Shown: one piece after another, positions 6,645-57,228 of the stretch
Numbering within the stretch: the first letter of the stretch is position 1
Layout of the letters: each line of letters begins with the position of its first letter
Assembly: GCA_029027985.1 (NCBI GenBank)
Contig: CP119076.1
Coordinates: 4,028,422 to 4,092,421 of the forward strand
Length of the DNA: 64,000 nucleotides
Origin: Klebsiella aerogenes
Lineage (GTDB): Bacteria > Pseudomonadota > Gammaproteobacteria > Enterobacterales > Enterobacteriaceae
Direction: 5' to 3'
Notes under the pieces: model-generated
The model's database searches: none
Told to the model about the DNA's origin: nothing
The model's input: only the letters and a program-made list of their open reading frames with translations
Program-made: the position numbers and the translations under genes

Positions 6645-6682
6645 GGGGGTATTCCTTATCTATCTAATCGTTGATTTAACTG

Positions 6683-6750
6683 GAACCTGTCCCATTGAAC
6701 TCTTTGTTCTTCTCTATTCTGAACAACCAAAAATTCAATAAGACAGGTTC
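6683..6750 (-). promoter_or_regulatory. Long nested hairpin between pdhR and aceE
   Basis: Three inverted repeats are nested about one centre: GAACCTGTC (6683-6691) with 6742-6750, ATTGAA (6694-6699) with 6734-6739, and TTGTTC (6704-6709) with 6721-6726. In the pdhR-aceEF mRNA they make a 68-nt stem-loop with small internal loops. There is no T tract, so it is not a simple terminator. From memory the E. coli interval has a similar outer stem. It may set the pdhR:aceE expression ratio or protect the aceE mRNA 5' end. Confidence 0.6.
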
Positions 6751-6783
6751 TGCGTTTAGTTGCCGCGCTCTAAAAAATGGCGC

Positions 6784-21362: not shown

Positions 21363-21388
21363 AAAAAAGGCGCAGATATCTGCGCCTT
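21363..21388 (-). terminator. Terminator between secA and mutT
   Basis: A perfect 22-bp palindrome (21367-21388, AAGGCGCAGAT and its complement), followed on the minus strand by a T run. It lies 20 nt past the secA stop and just before the mutT start at 21348, so mutT probably depends on read-through or on its own promoter nearby. Confidence 0.75.
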
Positions 21389-21408
21389 TGTTTGCTTTTT
21401 ATCAGCCC

Positions 21409-24114
21409 TTAGCTCAGACGGCCATGGCACTGTTTGTATTTTTTACCGGAACCGCACGGGCAAGGATCGTTACGGCCGACTTTACGGTCGCCAGTTTGTT
21501 CCGCCAGCGCCGCGGCAGCCACGGTATCGTCATCCTGATGGCTCAACTGCTGCAGTTGCGCGAGACGTTCAGCCTCTTCACGGCGCTGCTGCTCCATCTC
21601 TTCGACCTCTTCCGGCATCCGTACCTGAACTTTGCTCAGGGTACTGATCACCTCATACTTCAGCGATTCCAGCATCGCGGCGAACATTGAGAAGGATTCA
21701 CGCTTGTACTCCTGCTTCGGATCTTTCTGCGCATAGCCGCGCAGGTGGATGCCCTGGCGCAGGTAGTCCATCGCCGCCAGATGCTCTTTCCACAGGGAAT
21801 CCAATGTCTGCAGCATGACGCCTTTCTCGAAATGACGCATCATCTCGGCGCCGACGACTTCTTCTTTACGCTGGTAGGTTTCTACCGCGCTCTGCAGAAT
21901 ACGTTCGCGCAGGGTTTCTTCGTGCAGCTCTGGCTCTTTATCCAGCCACTCTTTGATAGGCAGCTCCAGATCGAAGTCGTTTTTCAGACGTTCCTGCAGG
22001 CCTTCAATATCCCACATTTCTTCCAGCGACTGCGGCGGAATATGCGCATCGAGCGTAGCTTTGAACACATCTTCGCGGATACTGTTAATGGTTTCGCTCA
22101 CGTCGGAAATATCCAGCAGTTCGTTACGCTGGGTGTAGATCGCGCGGCGTTGGTCGTTAGCCACATCATCATATTCCAGCAGCTGTTTACGGATATCGAA
22201 GTTGCGGCTTTCCACTTTACGCTGTGCGTTGGCAATCGCTTTGGTCACCCATGGATGCTCAATAGCCTCGCCTGGTTTCATCCCCAGTTTACGCATCATG
22301 CCGGATACGCGATCGGAGGCGAAGATACGCATCAAGGCATCTTCCATCGACAGGTAGAAGCGGGAAGAACCAGCATCGCCCTGACGACCCGCACGGCCGC
22401 GCAGCTGGTTATCGATACGGCGGGATTCATGGCGCTCGGTACCGATGATATGCAGACCGCCTGCAGCCAGTACTGCATCATGGCGTACCTGCCAGTCAGC
22501 TTTAATCTGTTCAATCTGCTCCGGCGTCGGTTCTTCCAGCGCGGCGACTTCCGCCTGCCAGCTACCGCCAAGCATAATATCGGTACCACGACCCGCCATG
22601 TTGGTGGCGATGGTCACTGCCGCCGGATAACCGGCCTGAGCAACGATATCCGCTTCGCTGGCGTGGAACTTGGCGTTCAGCACGTTGTGCTTAATACCAG
22701 CTTTCGTCAGTTCGCGAGAGACGACTTCTGATTTTTCAATCGAGATGGTCCCTACCAGCACCGGCTGACCGGCAGCGGTACGATCTTTGATATCTTCGAT
22801 AATCGCCTGAATTTTTTCCGCTTCGGTCATGTAGACCAGATCCGCCATATCCTTACGGATCATCGGACGGTTGGTTGGGACCACCACGGTATCCAGTTTA
22901 TAGATAGAGCTGAATTCAAAGGCTTCAGTATCCGCAGTACCGGTCATCCCTGCCAGCTTCTCGTACAGACGGAAGTAGTTCTGGAAAGTAATCGATGCCA
23001 GGGTCTGGTTTTCGTTCTGGATATCCACGCCTTCTTTGGCTTCTACTGCCTGGTGCAGACCATCGGACCAGCGACGGCCCTGCATCGTACGACCGGTGTG
23101 CTCATCGACGATAATAACTTCGCCATCTTTAACGATGTAGTCAACGTCGCGGGTGAACAGCGCATGCGCGCGCAGCGCGGCGGTCACATGGTGCATCAGC
23201 ATGATGTTGGTCGGGGAATACAGCGATTCGCCCTCTTCCATAATGCCTTCTTGCACCAGCAGTTCTTCGATCAGCACCAGACCACGTTCGGTCAGGTTCA
23301 CCTGGCGGGCTTTCTCATCAACGGAGAAATGGCCTTCGCCGGTAAAGGTGTCAGAGTCTTCTTTTTCCTGGCGAACCAGGTGCGGAATGATCTTGTTCAC
23401 CTTGCGATACATTTCGGAGCTGTCTTCAGCCGGGCCGGAAATGATCAGCGGCGTACGCGCTTCGTCGATCAGGATCGAGTCCACCTCATCCACCAGCGCA
23501 TAGTGCAGTTTACGCTGTACGCGCTCTTCCGGGCTGAATGCCATGTTGTCGCGCAGGTAGTCGAACCCGTATTCGTTGTTGGTGCCGTAGGTGATATCGG
23601 CCGCGTAAGCTTCGCGCTTCGCTGGCGCAGGCAGGCCAGACATGTTGATACCGACGCTCATGCCGAGGAATTCAAACAGCGGGCGGTTGTTTTCGGCATC
23701 ACGCTGCGCCAGATAGTCGTTGACGGTAACTACATGTACGCCTTTACCGGACAGCGCGTTCAGGTATGCCGGCAGCGTCGCGGTCAGGGTTTTACCTTCA
23801 CCAGTACGCATTTCCGCGATGCAGCGGTCGTTCAATACCATGCCGCCCAGCAGCTGTACGTCAAAGTGGCGCATACCAAATACGCGCTTACTCGCTTCAC
23901 GCACCACAGCAAACGCTTCCGGGATCAAACTTTCCAGGCTTTCGCCTTTTTCCAGACGCGCACGGAATTCAACGGTTTTTGCTTTCAGCTCGTCATCAGA
24001 CAGCTTCTCCATCGCCGGTTCCATACCGTTGATGATATTGACAGCTTTGCGCATACGGCGCAGCGTACGGTCGTTACGGCTACCGAAAACCTTGGTTAAC
24101 ATTTTAATTAACAT
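21409..24114 (-). CDS. secA: Preprotein translocase ATPase SecA
   Basis: 901 residues, the E. coli length. A DEAD-like motor that pushes unfolded preproteins through SecYEG. Walker A is EMRTGEGKT near 100-109, [15 protein letters not shown] marks NBD1, and NMAGRGTDI and [23 protein letters not shown] (in two halves) mark NBD2. The C-terminal zinc/SecB motif [13 protein letters not shown] has Cys885, Cys887, Cys896 and His897. It starts 62 nt after secM. In the family, SecM stalling exposes the secA ribosome site. The local Shine-Dalgarno (GAGAT) is weak. Confidence 0.98.
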
Positions 24115-24693: not shown

Positions 24694-24762
24694 TATACCC
24701 GTCGTCTTTCAAGCTGCCTTTTTATTGGCGGTCTTCGCAGTGCAACTTGATATCCACGGGCC
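24694..24762. repeat. Degenerate ERIC-like element upstream of secM
   Basis: The left end TATACCCGTCGTCTTTCAAG and the right part TGCAACTTGATATCCACGGG are ERIC-type termini (TATACCC..., TGCAACTTGAA...ACGGGTATA) facing each other as an imperfect palindrome. The right outer TATA is lost. The long ERIC centre is absent, leaving about 69 bp. It lies in the lpxC-secM gap, 20 nt before the secM start on the transcribed strand, so it becomes part of the secM leader. It is clearly related to the copy at 55077-55138. Confidence 0.7.
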
Positions 24763-24922
24763 AAGCAACCCAGAGAAATAATTTTGCGCCCAAATACTAA
24801 CATTAATACCGCGTCGAGACAGCATGAATGAAGGCTTAAGCAGCGGGAAAACGCTTAATAAAGCAGCGAACGCACGGTGATTATCGCCAGTGAATCCCGG
24901 CAGAAAATCATTTGGGAGGGTT

Positions 24923-26014: not shown

Positions 26015-27166
26015 TTAATCAGCTTGCTTACGCAGGAACGCTGGGATATCCAGATAATCCGGCTCTTTCGCGGTTTGCGGCGTATTGTCGTTCACCACTT
26101 TTGCGACCGGTTTCTGCTCTTGAGTCAATGGCGCCATACCGTGCTGCTGGTAGCGATCCATCACCGGCTGCTGAACCTGTTTGTTGGTCACCAGGGTAAT
26201 TTCCGGACGCTTGTCCATACCGATACCGGTAGCAACAACGGTAACACGCAGTTCGTCGTTCATATCCGGATCCAGAGAGGTACCGATAACCACGGTCGCA
26301 TTATCCGAAGCAAAGGCGCGAATAGTGTTACCCACGGTCTCGAACTCATCCAGACGCAGGTCGAAGCCAGCGGTAATGTTGACCAGAACGCCGCGCGCGC
26401 CGGACAGATCGATATCTTCCAACAGTGGGGAAGAGATAGCCATTTCAGCCGCTTCTTCCGCACGGTCTTCACCGCTCGCCACGCCAGAGCCCATCATCGC
26501 GTAGCCCATTTCAGACATAACGGTGCGGACGTCCGCGAAGTCGACGTTCATCAGACCCGGACGGGTAATCAGTTCGGCGATACCTTGCACTGCGCCTTTC
26601 AGTACGTCGTTTGCCGCGCCGAAAGCGTCGAGCAGAGAAATACCGCGACCCAGCACTTTCAGCAGCTTGTCGTTCGGGATGGTGATCAGTGAGTCAACGT
26701 GCTTGGACAGCTCGGTGATCCCCTGCTCAGCAAACGCCATGCGCTTTTTGCCTTCGAAATTAAATGGCTTAGTGACGACCGCAACGGTCAGGATCCCCAG
26801 ATCCTTCGCCACTTCCGCGACAACGGGCGCCGCGCCGGTACCGGTACCGCCGCCCATACCAGCCGCGATAAATACCATGTCCGCGCCATCAAGCGCAGCG
26901 CGCAGCGCTTCACGGTCTTCATCCGCCGCATTACGGCCGACTTCCGGGTTCGCGCCTGCGCCCAGACCTTTGGTAATACCGCTACCAATCTGGATAGTCT
27001 GGCCAACAGCCGTTTTGCGCAGTGCCTGCGCATCGGTGTTGACCGCGAAGAATTCAACACCCTCAATGCGCTCGCGCACCATGTGTTCAACGGCATTACC
27101 GCCGCCGCCACCGACGCCGATGACTTTAATCACCGCGTCGTTGGTCAGTTCCATAGGTTCAAACAT
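26015..27166 (-). CDS. ftsZ: Cell division GTPase FtsZ
   Basis: 383 residues, the E. coli length. Tubulin-like GTPase that forms the Z-ring. The GTP signature GGGTGTG is at 105-111 and the catalytic synergy-loop NVDFADV near 207. A disordered linker leads to the conserved C-terminal peptide [14 protein letters not shown] that binds FtsA, ZipA and ZapD (also encoded here). It is 62 nt downstream of ftsA. Confidence 0.98.
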
Positions 27167-27228
27167 AGTTTCTCTCCGTCTTGTGCCTGTCGCCTGAGAA
27201 CGCTAATTGTCTGCGTTCTCTTAAAAAA

Positions 27229-28491
27229 TTAAAACTCTTTTCGCAGCCAGCTATTGAGTCGCTTAATCCACGACCCGACTGACGCCGTCACACGTTTTTC
27301 TACTTCTGCTTCACCACTGAGATGAGACTCTTTTCCGTAGTGCAGCAACCCAACCGCCGTCGAATAATACGGCTCCTGGGCATAATCCGTTAAACCGGTA
27401 ATGTTCAGCGGCGCGCCGATGCGCACCTGCGTATGGAACACGCGCTGCGCGCAGGCCGCCAGGCCTTCAATTTGCGCGGCGCCGCCGGTTAATACAATCC
27501 CCGCCGCCAGGTGGTGTTTCACGCCTTGCTGACGGAGCTGTTCCTGCAACTGCAGGATCTCTTCGTTAACCAGATTGAGCAGTTCGGTGTAGCGCGGTTC
27601 AATGACCTCTGCCAGCGTCTGACGCTGCAGGCTGCGCGGCGGACGTCCGCCCACGCTCGGTACTTCCACGTTCTCGTCTTTACCGACGATTGAACCTAAT
27701 GCGCAACCGTGACGAACCTTAATGGCTTCGGCGTCGCTCGGCGGCGTCCCGAAGGCATAGGCGATATCGCTGGTCACCACATTACCCGCGTACGGGATCA
27801 CTTTGGTATGACGCAGCGCGCCGCCGGTATACACGGCGATATCCATTGTACCACCGCCGATGTCGACAACGCAGACTCCCAGCTCACGTTCGTCTTCCGT
27901 TAATACGGAATAACTGGCCGCTAAACCGGCGAAAATAAGTTGGTCAACTTTCAGACCACAACGTTCAACCGCTTTAACAATGTTTTTTGCCATATCGTTA
28001 TGGCAGGTAATCAAATGAACCTTCGCCTGCATACGCACGCCGGATAGCCCTACCGGATTTTTAATCCCTTCCTGGTAGTCGATGGCGTATTCCTGCGGGA
28101 TGACGTGCAGTACGCGATGCTCGTCGCGCACGCGAACCGACTTCGCGGTATGAACGACGTTTTCAACGTCATCCTGCGTCACCTCTTCTTCTGAAATCGG
28201 CACCATACCAATTTCATTTTGACAGCTAATATGCTTACCTGAAAGCGCCAGATACACTGAAGAGATCTGGCAATCGGCCATCAGTTCAGCCTGGTCGATA
28301 GCGCGTTGTACGCATTTGACTACCGACTCGAGGTCATTCACCCCGCCTTTATCCATACCACGCGATGGGCAACTGCCCACGCCAATGATATTAATCATAC
28401 CGTCGGGCAGAACTTCCCCTACTAAAGCGGCAACCTTCGCGGTGCCAATCTCCAGTCCAACTACCAGTTTTCTGTCCGTCGCCTTGATCAT
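27229..28491 (-). CDS. ftsA: Cell division actin-like protein FtsA
   Basis: 420 residues. Actin-fold ATPase that tethers FtsZ filaments to the membrane. ATP-binding pieces are seen at [32 protein letters not shown] and [14 protein letters not shown]. The C-terminal amphipathic helix [15 protein letters not shown] is the membrane anchor. It overlaps ftsQ by ATGA. Confidence 0.98.
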
Positions 28492-48857: not shown

Positions 48858-48891
48858 TAAAAGCATATCGATTTCCACTGGAGTATGACGC

Positions 48892-48978
48892 ATGATTCGC
48901 ACCACTCGCTTCACCAGCCTACTACTACTAAACGCATCCATTATGCGCGGTAGGCTGTTGGGCGACGTTCAGCGTTAA
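48892..48978 (+). CDS. leuL: leu operon leader peptide
   Basis: 28-codon leader, ATG 48892 to TAA 48978. It contains four consecutive CUA leucine codons (rare codons) at positions 10-13 (residues SLLLLNAS), plus two more Leu near the end (RLLG). Ribosome stalling there when charged tRNA-Leu is scarce prevents the downstream terminator from forming. The ends of the peptide differ from E. coli and Salmonella, but length and the Leu block are conserved. Confidence 0.92.
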   Translation: MIRTTRFTSLLLLNASIMRGRLLGDVQR

Positions 48979-48999
48979 GTCATCTTCCAGCAAGACACT

Positions 49000-49027
49000 A
49001 AACCCGCGCCATTGCGCGGGTTTTTTT
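49000..49027 (+). terminator. leu attenuator
   Basis: Nine-base stem AACCCGCGC/GCGCGGGTT (49001-49009 and 49014-49022) followed by a T run. It lies 23 nt past leuL and 45 nt before leuA. Confidence 0.92.
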
Positions 49028-53829: not shown

Positions 53830-55008
53830 CTAAACGTCCTTGACCCTCCCGGTCAGCACCAGCGTCACCAGCGAAATCCCGGCAATCACCCAGTACACCG
53901 AGAAATGGCCAAAGCTCTGCGCCAGCGCCCCTTGAATAATCCCCGCCAGAATTACCCCGGTTGAAATACTATTGGTAAACAGCGTGGTCGCTGCCCCCGC
54001 ACGACCGGGCATCAGATCCTGGAACCACAACATGCCGATCCCGGCGACAATACCGATAAACACCGCGTTGAATAGCTGAAGCACCAACAGCGAGGTATGG
54101 CTGTGGAAGAAGATCAGCCCGACGTAGAACAGCACACCAGCGGCCACCGCCGTCACCATCATCCGCCGCTTACCGAAGCGCTTCACGTAGTAACCCGCGA
54201 GGATCATCGCCGGAATTTCCAGCCCCGCCGCCGTCCCCATCAGGATCCCCGCCAGACTATCGGGCAGACCGAGATCGCTGCTGATCCACAATGGCATATC
54301 GATGATATACATGGTGTTGCAGGTCCACATCAGCGTGGAAGCGATAAACAGCATCCGTACGTTGCTGTCCTTCCAGCCGCTAATCTGGTTCTGCACCACG
54401 TCGGCGGGCTGTTCGACCCTCGCCACCGACGGTAGCGTCAGGGCAATCAGCGTCAGGCTAATCACGAAAATGGCGGCGGCAATAGAAAACATGGCAGTAA
54501 AGCCATAGTTGAGCGCCAGCATAAAGGCCAGCGGTGGGCCAATAACCCACGCCAGCGACAGCTGGGCGCGCATCACCGAGCTGAACATCACCACTTCCCG
54601 CGCCGAACTATCGGCATATTCACGGGCGAGCGCAAACAGCTGCGGCATCGCGGCGTTGGCGATTGAGGCCAGCATCACGCCACAGGTGATAAGCGTCAGG
54701 TAGTGGCGGTTGAAAGCGAACAGCAGGGCGTTGCCCACCGCCATCAGGCAACAGAACATAATCAGGCGCCGCCGATCGCCGCGGCTGTCCGATCGTTTCG
54801 CCAGCGCCAGGCTCACCAGGATGCCGGCAATCGCATTCACCGTATAAAACAGGCCAACCCAAAACGGCGGCGCGCCGACTTCACGGCTCAGGAACAGGCT
54901 GAGCGTCGGCGCTTGCAGGGCTCCCGCCACGCCCATCATAAAAGCCACCAGCATAAAAGCGGCATACACGCCGTTTAGCCGTCGCCCCATCGTCATTAAC
55001 CACAGCAT
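53830..55008 (-). CDS. setA: Sugar efflux transporter SetA
   Basis: 392 residues, major facilitator superfamily, about 12 transmembrane helices. Exports glucose and other sugars or their analogues, relieving sugar-phosphate stress. MFS loop motif LAKRSDSRGDRRR is seen near 70. It lies directly downstream of sgrS (31 nt past its terminator) on the same strand, as in E. coli where sgrS and setA can be co-transcribed. Confidence 0.96.
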   Translation of the reverse strand: MLWLMTMGRRLNGVYAAFMLVAFMMGVAGALQAPTLSLFLSREVGAPPFWVGLFYTVNAIAGILVSLALAKRSDSRGDRRRLIMFCCLMAVGNALLFAFNRHYLTLITCGVMLASIANAAMPQLFALAREYADSSAREVVMFSSVMRAQLSLAWVIGPPLAFMLALNYGFTAMFSIAAAIFVISLTLIALTLPSVARVEQPADVVQNQISGWKDSNVRMLFIASTLMWTCNTMYIIDMPLWISSDLGLPDSLAGILMGTAAGLEIPAMILAGYYVKRFGKRRMMVTAVAAGVLFYVGLIFFHSHTSLLVLQLFNAVFIGIVAGIGMLWFQDLMPGRAGAATTLFTNSISTGVILAGIIQGALAQSFGHFSVYWVIAGISLVTLVLTGRVKDV

Positions 55009-55076
55009 GAAATATCCTTAACACACGCGAAGTAAACGAAAAAAGCCAGCAGAAGCAATCTGCTGGCGGGTGATTC

Positions 55077-55138
55077 TATACTCTATGGATTTCGAGTTGC
55101 AGCCAATGCTGCCTACAGCCTGAAAGACGGCGAGTATA
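55077..55138. repeat. 62-bp ERIC-like palindrome inserted in sgrS
   Basis: Ends are TATACTC and GAGTATA, with inner TTTCGAGTTGCA and CAGCCTGAAAGACGGCGAGT. These correspond to the two termini of ERIC (TATACCC...TTCGAGTTGCA and TGCAACTTGAAG...ACGGGTATA) with the centre deleted. It abuts the conserved pairing region at 55139 and interrupts a sequence that in E. coli reads GGTGATTTTACACC on this strand. Confidence 0.8.
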
Positions 55139-55172
55139 ACACCAATACTCAGTCACACATGATGTCTGCAAG

Positions 55173-55325
55173 TCAACGATCGGAGGTCGGCGACGTAACT
55201 CCCCACTGCATCAGTTCCTCCAGCATCTTCTGCTGTTTTCCTGCCAACAGGCGGGCCAGCCAGGACGCATCCTGCGTCGCAGAAAAGTACCGTTGATAGA
55301 ACTGTCTGGTGGTTGACCTCGTCAT
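55173..55325 (-). CDS. sgrT: SgrT, glucose-transporter inhibitor peptide
   Basis: 50 residues encoded in the 5' part of SgrS, ATG 55325 to TGA 55173. Central RQFYQRYFSAT resembles E. coli RQFYQHYFTAT, and KMLEELMQW matches TMLEGLMQW. The N terminus is six residues longer (MTRSTT) than the 43-residue E. coli peptide. AAGGAG lies 7 nt before the ATG, a stronger site than in E. coli. SgrT blocks PtsG activity, complementing the RNA's repression of ptsG synthesis. Confidence 0.9.
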   Translation of the reverse strand: MTRSTTRQFYQRYFSATQDASWLARLLAGKQQKMLEELMQWGVTSPTSDR

Positions 55326-55412
55326 ATTCATCTCCTTACTTCATCGAGATTCATTATTGACCTAATATAGGAACTCATAAATTGCTGAGTTTTCGTCAGG
55401 AGTTCCCCTTTT

Positions 55413-57068
55413 ATGTCTTCCAGTCGTTTGCAACAACAGTTCATCCGCTTATGGCAGTGCTGCGAGGGTAAGTCGCAAGAGACGACCCTTAACGAGCTGG
55501 CGGAAATGCTCAGCTGCTCGCGCCGCCATATGCGCACGCTGCTCAATATGATGGCGGAACGCGGCTGGCTGGCATGGGAATCCGAAGCCGGACGCGGCAA
55601 GCGTTCCAGGCTGACTTTCCTCTATACCGGGCTGGCGTTGCAGCAGCAGCGCGCCGAGGATTTGCTGGAGCAGGACCGCATCGACCAGTTGGTGCAGTTG
55701 GTCGGCGATAAAGCGGCCGTCAGGCAAATGCTGATTTCACATCTTGGCCGTAGCTTCCGCCAGGGGCGGCATATCCTGCGCGTGCTCTACTATCGACCGA
55801 TGAAAAATCTGCTGCCCGGCAGCGCGCTGCGCCGCTCGGAGACCCACATCGCCCGGCAGATTTTTAGCGCCCTGACGCGGGTAAATGAGGAAAACGGGGA
55901 ACTGGAGGCCGACATCGCTCACCACTGGCAGCAGATTTCGCCAACCCACTGGCGCTTTTTCCTGCGCCCCGGCATTCATTTCCATCACGGCCGCGAACTG
56001 GAAATGACTGACGTCATCTCTTCGTTGCAGCGCAGCAGAGAGCTGCCGTTGTTTTCACATATCACGCGCATCATCTCACCGACCGCCTGGACGCTGGATA
56101 TTCACCTCAGTCAGCCGGATCGCTGGCTACCGTGGTTGCTGGGTCAGGTCCCGGCGATGATGCTGCCGCACGAATGGCGGACGATGAACCGCTTTTCCAG
56201 TATGCCCATTGGTACCGGCCCCTATGCGGTGGCGCGCAACAATCAAAACCAGCTGAAAATCCACGCCTTCGAGGATTACTTCGGCTACCGGGCGCTTATC
56301 GATGAGGTCAACGTCTGGGTGCTGCCGGAAATTAGCGAAGAGCCCAGCTGCGGGTTAACCCTACAGGGCAATACCGAAAGCGAAAAAGCGGTGGAGAGTC
56401 GCCTGGAAGAAGGCTGCTACTACCTGTTGTTTGATTGCCGCAGCCCGCTGGGTCGCAACGATGAGGTTCGCCGCTGGCTCAGCCATCTATTCCAGCCCGC
56501 CAACCTGCTCTACCACGCGGGCGAGCACTATCAGGGCAACTGGTTCCCGGCCTACGGCCTGCTGCCGCGCTGGCACCATGCCCGCAGCCACACCTGCGAG
56601 AAACCAGCGGGACTGGAGTCGGTCACCCTCACCTACTACCGCGATCACGTCGAACATCGCGTGATCGGCGGGATCATGCGCACGCTGCTGGCGGAACATC
56701 AGGTGAAGCTAGAAATACAGGAACTAGAGTATGACGACTGGCATCGCGGTGAAGCGGTGAGCGATATCTGGCTCAACAGCGCCAACTTCACGCTGCCGAT
56801 CGATTTTTCCCTGTTCGCCTATTTATATGAAGTGCCGCTTATCCATCACTGCATCCCCATCGACTGGGAAGCGGACGCCAGCCGCTGGCGCGCGGGTGAA
56901 TTCAACCCGGCGACCTGGAGCCAGCAACTCCTGGTCCAGCAGCATATCGTGCCGCTGATTCACCACTGGCTGATGATTCAGGGACAGCGCAGTATGCGCG
57001 GGGTGCGTATGAACACCCTCGGTTGGTTTGACTTCAAATCGGCATGGTTCGCCCCGCCGGAGCCCTGA
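55413..57068 (+). CDS. sgrR: SgrR, transcriptional activator of sgrS
   Basis: 551 residues, the E. coli length. An N-terminal winged helix (about 1-80, with [23 protein letters not shown]) is joined to a solute-binding (SBP-5-like) domain (about 160-480) thought to sense sugar phosphates. Divergent from sgrS with a 67-nt gap between its ATG and the sRNA start, matching activation of sgrS and autorepression. Confidence 0.97.
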
Positions 57069-57106
57069 AGACTTTCCGTCATCTGACAAAATCATTACAC
57101 TATCGC

Positions 57107-57228
57107 CGTTCTCAACGGGGTGCTGAAAGGCTGAGAAAATACCCGTCGAACCTGATCCGGATAACGCCAGCGAAGGGATTTGAGGCTGACTCAAAATCCT
57201 TTGCCTCCCCATTTACTGAGGTGCAAAG
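57107..57228 (+). promoter_or_regulatory. TPP riboswitch (THI element) of thiBPQ
   Basis: Conserved pieces in order: CTCAACGGGGTGC (57111-57123), CTGAGAAAATACCC (57131-57144), GAACCTGATCCGGATAACGC (57148-57167), then GAAGGGA. P1 can form by CTCAA (57111-57115) with TTGAG (57180-57184). The P3 arm is very short. Downstream, CTTTGC-CTC (57199-57207) pairs with GAG-GT-GCAAAG (57218-57228), masking the ribosome site of the GTG at 57228, so control is probably at translation initiation. Confidence 0.93.

Follow-up and report, generated by a model that had tools for sequence, protein, structure and literature searches.

The small RNA SgrS of E. coli and Salmonella (RF00534) is the closest described relative of the RNA gene analyzed here, and the two are alike in their position between setA and sgrR, the SgrT reading frame, the mRNA-pairing block, the small stem and the terminator, but the loop of that small stem has 6 nt in the E. 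coli type or a short mini-hairpin in Salmonella, whereas here it holds a 62-bp ERIC remnant. The small stem-loop of E. coli (nt 183-196, GGUG/CACC) is reported to be needed for the stability of SgrS: with the substitution G184A the lifetime of the RNA was 3.6 instead of 10.4 min, and C195U, the compensatory change, brought it back (PMC7870926). In the same source the pairing region is given first as nt 168-187, ending one base past GGUG, and later narrowed to 168-181. The U-tail is described elsewhere as required by Hfq (PMC5558911, PMC4509938). The second described system is the element itself, ERIC (also IRU or RU-1), which our insert resembles in its TA ends, its inverted repeat, its repetition in the genome and the existence, in the K. 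oxytoca branch, of a full copy of 127 bp in the corresponding position, while differing in that the present copy is without about 65 bp of the middle and sits in an RNA gene. Conserved structured RNA genes that contain a small mobile palindrome are likewise described for Rickettsia, whose palindromic elements lie in tmRNA and RNase P RNA (Ogata et al. 2002, cited in PMC2229807), but element and RNA are different ones, and in our case it is the apical loop of an Hfq module, struck in separate lineages. In Coxiella, QMITE1/2 are reported to supply sequence to bacterial sRNAs (PMC5896051), although those sRNAs were born from the MITEs, whereas here an element was inserted into a conserved sRNA. 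An earlier description of the SgrS insert was not found in the literature searched, with Horler and Vanderpool 2009 and Wadler and Vanderpool 2009 outside its scope; as far as these searches go, the presence of ERIC within the Hfq module of a core sRNA, genus-wide in our set and recurring in another lineage, is new.

The window, a 64,000-nucleotide stretch of a Klebsiella aerogenes genome, contains the only Rfam match to SgrS across 5.0 Mb (Table 1). Covariance model match, sgrR - sgrS - setA synteny as expected of SgrS, and the SgrT peptide, a feature of most members, were all found at the locus, and the K. pneumoniae gene in the position of the setA-like gene is annotated 'sugar efflux transporter'. 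The initial annotation had described, at positions 55039-55164, a 62-bp palindrome in the GGTG/CACC loop between the pairing block and the terminator, and direct reading of the sequence agrees with this interval, as does the Rfam alignment with the placement, since it contains a 61-nt insertion 3' of UGGUGUU in addition to further, shorter insertions more upstream. Its statement that the insert starts at the base after the pairing region depends on how that region is drawn: the insert begins after GGTG and one T, which agrees with the older limit (nt 168-187) and not with the later one (168-181; PMC7870926).

Table 1. Features of the sgrS locus and other RNA or ERIC-like features of the window (window coordinates)
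Feature	Position	Strand	Basis
SgrS small RNA	55345..55038	-	Rfam RF00534, 152.6 bits (gathering score 37), full model 1-232
sgrT open reading frame, 52 aa	55331..55173	-	Pfam SgrT PF15894, 37.9 bits, cut-off 27
mRNA-pairing block GTGTGACTGAGTATTGGTG	55158..55140	-	identical in 20/20 genus genomes; role as reported in PMC7870926
GGTG, 5' half of small stem-loop, Hfq-binding module	55143..55140	-	sequence, predicted fold, report in PMC7870926
T between GGTG and element	55139	-	sequence
Insert, 62-bp internally deleted ERIC, TATACTC...GAGTATA	55138..55077	-	consensus alignment, same-site relatives, own-genome copies
GAAT between element and CACC		-	read from sequence
CACC, 3' half of small stem-loop	55072..55069	-	sequence, predicted fold
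SgrS intrinsic terminator stem-loop	55067..55045	-	terminator search; predicted pairing probability 1.00 in 20/20 genus genomes
U-tail, six T	55044..55039	-	sequence
sgrR, activator gene, divergent from sgrS	55413..57068	+	Pfam SgrR_N
setA-like gene for a sugar efflux transporter, located downstream of sgrS	53830..55008	-	Pfam MFS_1
TPP riboswitch	57106-57196	+	Rfam
leu leader	48878-49027	+	Rfam
PssrA	27158-27249	-	Rfam
STnc40	21363-21433	-	Rfam
tp2	6648-6779	+	Rfam
Second short ERIC-like copy, TATACCCGTCGTCTTTCAAGCTGCC...	24694-24766	+	24 bases matched, E 5e-4; far end placed by eye

The ERIC-type identity proposed for the palindrome, which could have fallen with a lack of ERIC similarity in the 62 bp, was borne out by alignment with two published consensus sequences (PMC2759123 Table 1a, one of them from E. 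coli), with z of 7.1 and 6.9 against 300 shuffles. Against the E. coli consensus the window copy aligns only locally, with 31 of 39 aligned bases identical and the middle absent. At this site the K. oxytoca branch carries a 127-bp insert, one copy of which was aligned and matches that consensus without gaps from end to end (96/127 identical; z 28.6 and 23.5 against the two sequences), and judged by eye the window copy corresponds to about the first 40 and the last 22 bases of this form. Both termini are inverted repeats ending in TA (TATACTC...GAGTATA), the site of insertion is a TA, and a search of the same genome with the 127-bp sequence returned 22 places at E<=0.01, the SgrS site included. 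On these alignments the 62-bp insert is an internally deleted ERIC whose similarity to the family is beyond chance. A palindrome that arose by chance or as an inverted repeat private to this locus does have a parallel in Citrobacter, where the same loop holds a palindrome that is not ERIC-like and occurs at its own locus only, but for the present insert such an origin is refuted by the shuffled alignments and the 22 places in its own genome, and we give it practically no probability. An Rfam scan (gathering cut-offs) of 20 of the 21 other ERIC places in this genome gave no match that overlapped any of them.

All 20 Klebsiella and Raoultella genomes examined have a loop of at least 60 nt at this site. 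As measured on extracted sequences, the element has 62 bp in the window and 58 bp in the sister of the window species, 127 bp in the seven genomes of the K. oxytoca branch (K. oxytoca itself, G003, among them), 159 to 169 bp in four genomes, and about 85 to 88 bp, depending on where the end is drawn, in the seven genomes of a clade that includes three named Raoultella (G004, G008, G016). In the K. pneumoniae branch and in K. indica the middle of the insert has been replaced by other sequence, and the 165-bp insert of K. pneumoniae is present with equal loop length in all three records looked at, including the type strain ATCC 13883 (G019). Likeness to ERIC is partial in the Raoultella-branch, K. 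pneumoniae-branch and K. indica inserts (z 2.7 to 8.4), with R. terrigena at -0.5 against one consensus and 5.7 against the other, so that the case for their descent from a single insertion is built on site, ends and tree. In an sgrR tree of 55 chosen rows the 20 carriers form one clade (support 100/99), joined next by Kluyvera (93/78) and then by Superficieibacter. The empty site GGTGTAAAATCACC occurs exactly in one of two Superficieibacter rows (S. electus) and in others, the second Superficieibacter row differing by one base; where relatives read GGTG-TA-AAATCACC, the junctions of G017 read GGTG-TATACC...GTATA-AAATCACC, both matching TA exactly. Comparison of sgrS across genera, which had been suggested for dating the insertion, thus points to an old event, with 20 of 20 genus genomes carrying the insert and the nearest other lineages without it. 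The ERIC insertion at SgrS probably predates the split of the Klebsiella and Raoultella examined, these patterns are consistent with one ancestral insertion for the entire genus, and to judge from the tree ERIC insertions here appear only as old events.

The explanation that we favor, and in which we place good though not complete confidence, is that this ancestral ERIC insertion was structurally accommodated in the SgrS loop and has been kept, mostly as a tolerated passenger. The element would have entered the TA dinucleotide in the 6-nt loop of GGUG-UAAAAU-CACC in the ancestor shared by Klebsiella and Raoultella, and its ends, which can pair, would stack on the GGUG/CACC stem; because the element is an inverted repeat, the small stem-loop would have grown rather than been disrupted. 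The pairing block, the U-rich stretch, the closing stem, the terminator and the U-tail, i.e. the parts used by Hfq and ptsG, would have stayed in place, and the insert would then have been retained and reshaped, with changes in length and replacement of the middle in the K. pneumoniae branch and K. indica. Predicted folds from the pairing block to the U-tail in the 20 genus genomes support the suggestion in the initial annotation that a self-complementary insert can extend the hairpin. The terminator is predicted to pair with probability 1.00 in all 20, and with the block identical in all of them this is also in line with the claim that both are conserved; the GGUG/CACC closing stem exceeds 0.5 in 16 (0.81-0.83 in the window) and is below 0.4 in four (G001 0.08, G008 0.00, G009 0.13, G017 0.39). 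Folded by itself, the hairpin scores z -2.8 for the window copy, the range over the 20 genomes being -1.5 to -5.4 (200 shuffles), but since any ERIC is expected to fold, this does not inform on selection.

The loop tally outside the genus covers 97 genomes, namely G027, found by Rfam alone, and 96 of the 99 in which the pattern matched; it leaves out G335, G381 and G406, matched with two mismatches only, the 287 genomes of the 392 in the family in which the pattern had no match, and all Rfam-only genomes except G027. Seventy-three of the loops were short, 14 contained a mini-hairpin and had 20-24 nt when measured to the terminator stem, eight were unscored by the pattern, and two were long, these being in Pluralibacter (G296) and Citrobacter amalonaticus (G079). 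Of 80 named loci, which overlap with the tallied genomes, 47 have a short loop, 8 a mini-hairpin and 13 a long loop, and 12 were unscored. In a check of the E. coli population 3235 of 5426 genomes matched, each covered to at least 80%, and the remaining 2191 were without a match; gaps in the loop can be read only in the 15 matches listed, split matches having been joined by the search, and of these 14 were in one piece and one was in two with a short deletion.

The Pluralibacter loop insert is an ERIC by alignment (106/127 identical to the E. coli consensus, z 34.1), its sister G102 (100/100) has a short loop, and a single clade of all ERIC carriers was rejected on the sgrR tree (p 4e-6). The Pluralibacter ERIC being independent of that of Klebsiella and Raoultella, the same loop received ERIC at least twice. 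Three Citrobacter loci (L182, L183, L161) hold a palindrome unrelated to ERIC, with no similarity to the ERIC consensus in an alignment with shuffles; its interpretation as a repeat family was rejected, as it was found at its own locus only in the G079 genome. At L161 (Citrobacter sp. Res13) the loop insert is about 275 nt, a palindrome with a further structured piece of about 200 nt nested in it, and the hairpin has z -11.1. Seven of the 12 unscored named loci are without the small hairpin altogether, four of them Kluyvera, two Pseudocitrobacter and one an uncultured Pluralibacter. In the four Kluyvera (L149, L150, L154, L156) and two Pseudocitrobacter loci (L181, L204), GACTGAGTATT directly abuts the terminator stem and the small stem-loop is missing, though it is needed in E. 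coli. Taken together, the second ERIC, the Citrobacter palindromes and the hairpin-less Kluyvera loci indicate that the loop site is tolerant.

An alternative explanation is exaptation, in which the ERIC arm has become a selected RNA domain that stabilizes the Hfq module or separates the pairing block from the terminator; we consider this unlikely, but it deserves to be weighed. In its favor, palindromes reached this loop on at least two further occasions in other lineages, and the outer arms pair in five consensus folds, but the four Kluyvera and two Pseudocitrobacter loci manage without the hairpin, and the interior has been freely swapped in the K. pneumoniae branch. Slow change would be another argument, and in the seven genomes of the K. 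oxytoca branch the insert (for this comparison the 132 nt between GGTG and CACC) has 0.025 differences per site vs 0.285 at fourfold sites of sgrR. Controls were orthologous ERICs elsewhere in the same genomes, from the 100 listed of 178 other matches counted in the seven genomes, giving 18 groups and 47 pairwise comparisons after removal of two gap-rich pairs out of 49; since similarity to the SgrS copy was how they were identified, they are biased to conserved copies. Their rate has a median of 0.018 and a mean of 0.036, compared with 0.016 and 0.026 for the SgrS copy in the same genome pairs, and the insert was lower in 23 and higher in 24 of the 47 matched pairs. Because control ERICs are about equally conserved, selection inferred from slow divergence, and with it the claim of constraint on the insert, was abandoned.

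More favorable to exaptation is where changes fall in the fold. By five of the seven K. oxytoca-branch folds only 1 of 11 variable sites is in a paired position (P 0.0001 to 0.0003), with 86 paired positions in the 132-nt insert, or 82 by the fold of G005; in the control ERICs it is 24 of 47, with 934 of 1560 positions paired (13 groups, five of the 18 having been dropped for unequal length or more than 25% variable sites), and the contrast has p 0.016. The pair G007/G008 leans the same way, with 7/18 and 9/18 differences in paired positions by two folds (P 0.0015 and 0.07). However, by the folds of G009 and G015 there are 2/11 and 3/11 paired changes (P 0.0008 and 0.0065) and the contrast with controls weakens to p 0.09 and 0.19, the set G004/G010/G016 shows no avoidance of paired positions (P 0.14 to 0.74), and covariation among the seven Raoultella-clade inserts, where 3 of 34 pairs have double changes, is no better than in shuffles, which reach that number in 40/500 and 109/500. 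We regard the fold-dependent avoidance of paired positions as a hint only. The statement in the initial annotation that a module had been added to a regulatory RNA is accordingly not upheld, the insert being not clearly slower than control ERICs and the small hairpin missing in some genera, and a mostly tolerated passenger appears the better description. We similarly doubt, while leaving it some weight, the bolder proposal that the apical loop of the SgrS Hfq module is an evolutionary docking site for recurrent palindromes and that the Klebsiella arm is a maintained shielding or stabilizing domain.

Whether the lengthened RNA still works can be approached through K. pneumoniae, for which a review reports that the conserved pairing region of SgrS is required for ptsG regulation, that manX is regulated as well and that SgrT works (PMC4021124). 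As all three K. pneumoniae records carry the 165-bp insert, the suggestion of a longer, possibly functional sRNA is probably right, and SgrS probably kept its working parts while lengthening. In the window species SgrS would be functional too, with putative ptsG pairing and Hfq dependence; its pairing block is shared unchanged with the other genus genomes, and the reported function is that of K. pneumoniae. Microarray data from K. pneumoniae have SgrS 2.1-fold lower without Hfq, below the 3-fold mark of that paper (PMC3136514). It could be instead that the ERIC arm created a target for RNase III or RNase E, so that riboregulation weakened and the SgrT peptide came to carry most of the response: ERICs of Yersinia are reported to destabilize upstream mRNA through an RNase E site (PMC2229807, PMC10969869), and an SgrT frame is present at the locus. 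We hold such degeneration to be improbable, as the pairing block is identical in 20/20 genomes, the terminator is kept, and SgrS of K. pneumoniae is reported to regulate its targets. Even less probable, to a degree that we would call slight, is that Klebsiella SgrS ends or is processed before the insert, leaving it outside the functional RNA. In its favor is the 242 bp published in 2011 for SgrS of one strain, K. pneumoniae NTUH-K2044 (PMC3136514 Table 2), a length that does not fit the Rfam match in ATCC 13883, which spans 411 bp, and that also speaks against the favored explanation; the entry could be a fragment called by homology, or that strain could lack the insert. However, the only terminator-like site found on the minus strand from the pairing block to setA is 3' of the insert, and an RNA without it would be missing the U-tail reported to be required by Hfq. 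More broadly, the locus is a natural experiment in which a regulatory RNA of an important bacterial genus has absorbed about 60 to 170 foreign bases in its Hfq-binding module and probably still works. It gives reason to recheck the length annotated for SgrS in Klebsiella, and its natural alleles (lacking the hairpin, with a short loop, with inserts of 62, 127 or 165 bp, or with a nested one) allow direct tests of the role of the small stem-loop.

The sequence that replaced the middle of the insert has a distribution of its own. A repeat of K. indica (G013) with the core CAAAACGGTTAACCGTTTTG occurs at 35 distinct places by our own count and also fills the insert middle in K. pneumoniae-type genomes. 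Compared with the K. indica genome, the insert of the K. pneumoniae branch gave 46 matches at 37 distinct places (own count), 35 of these to its middle, and G012 and G019 each have one strong additional place.
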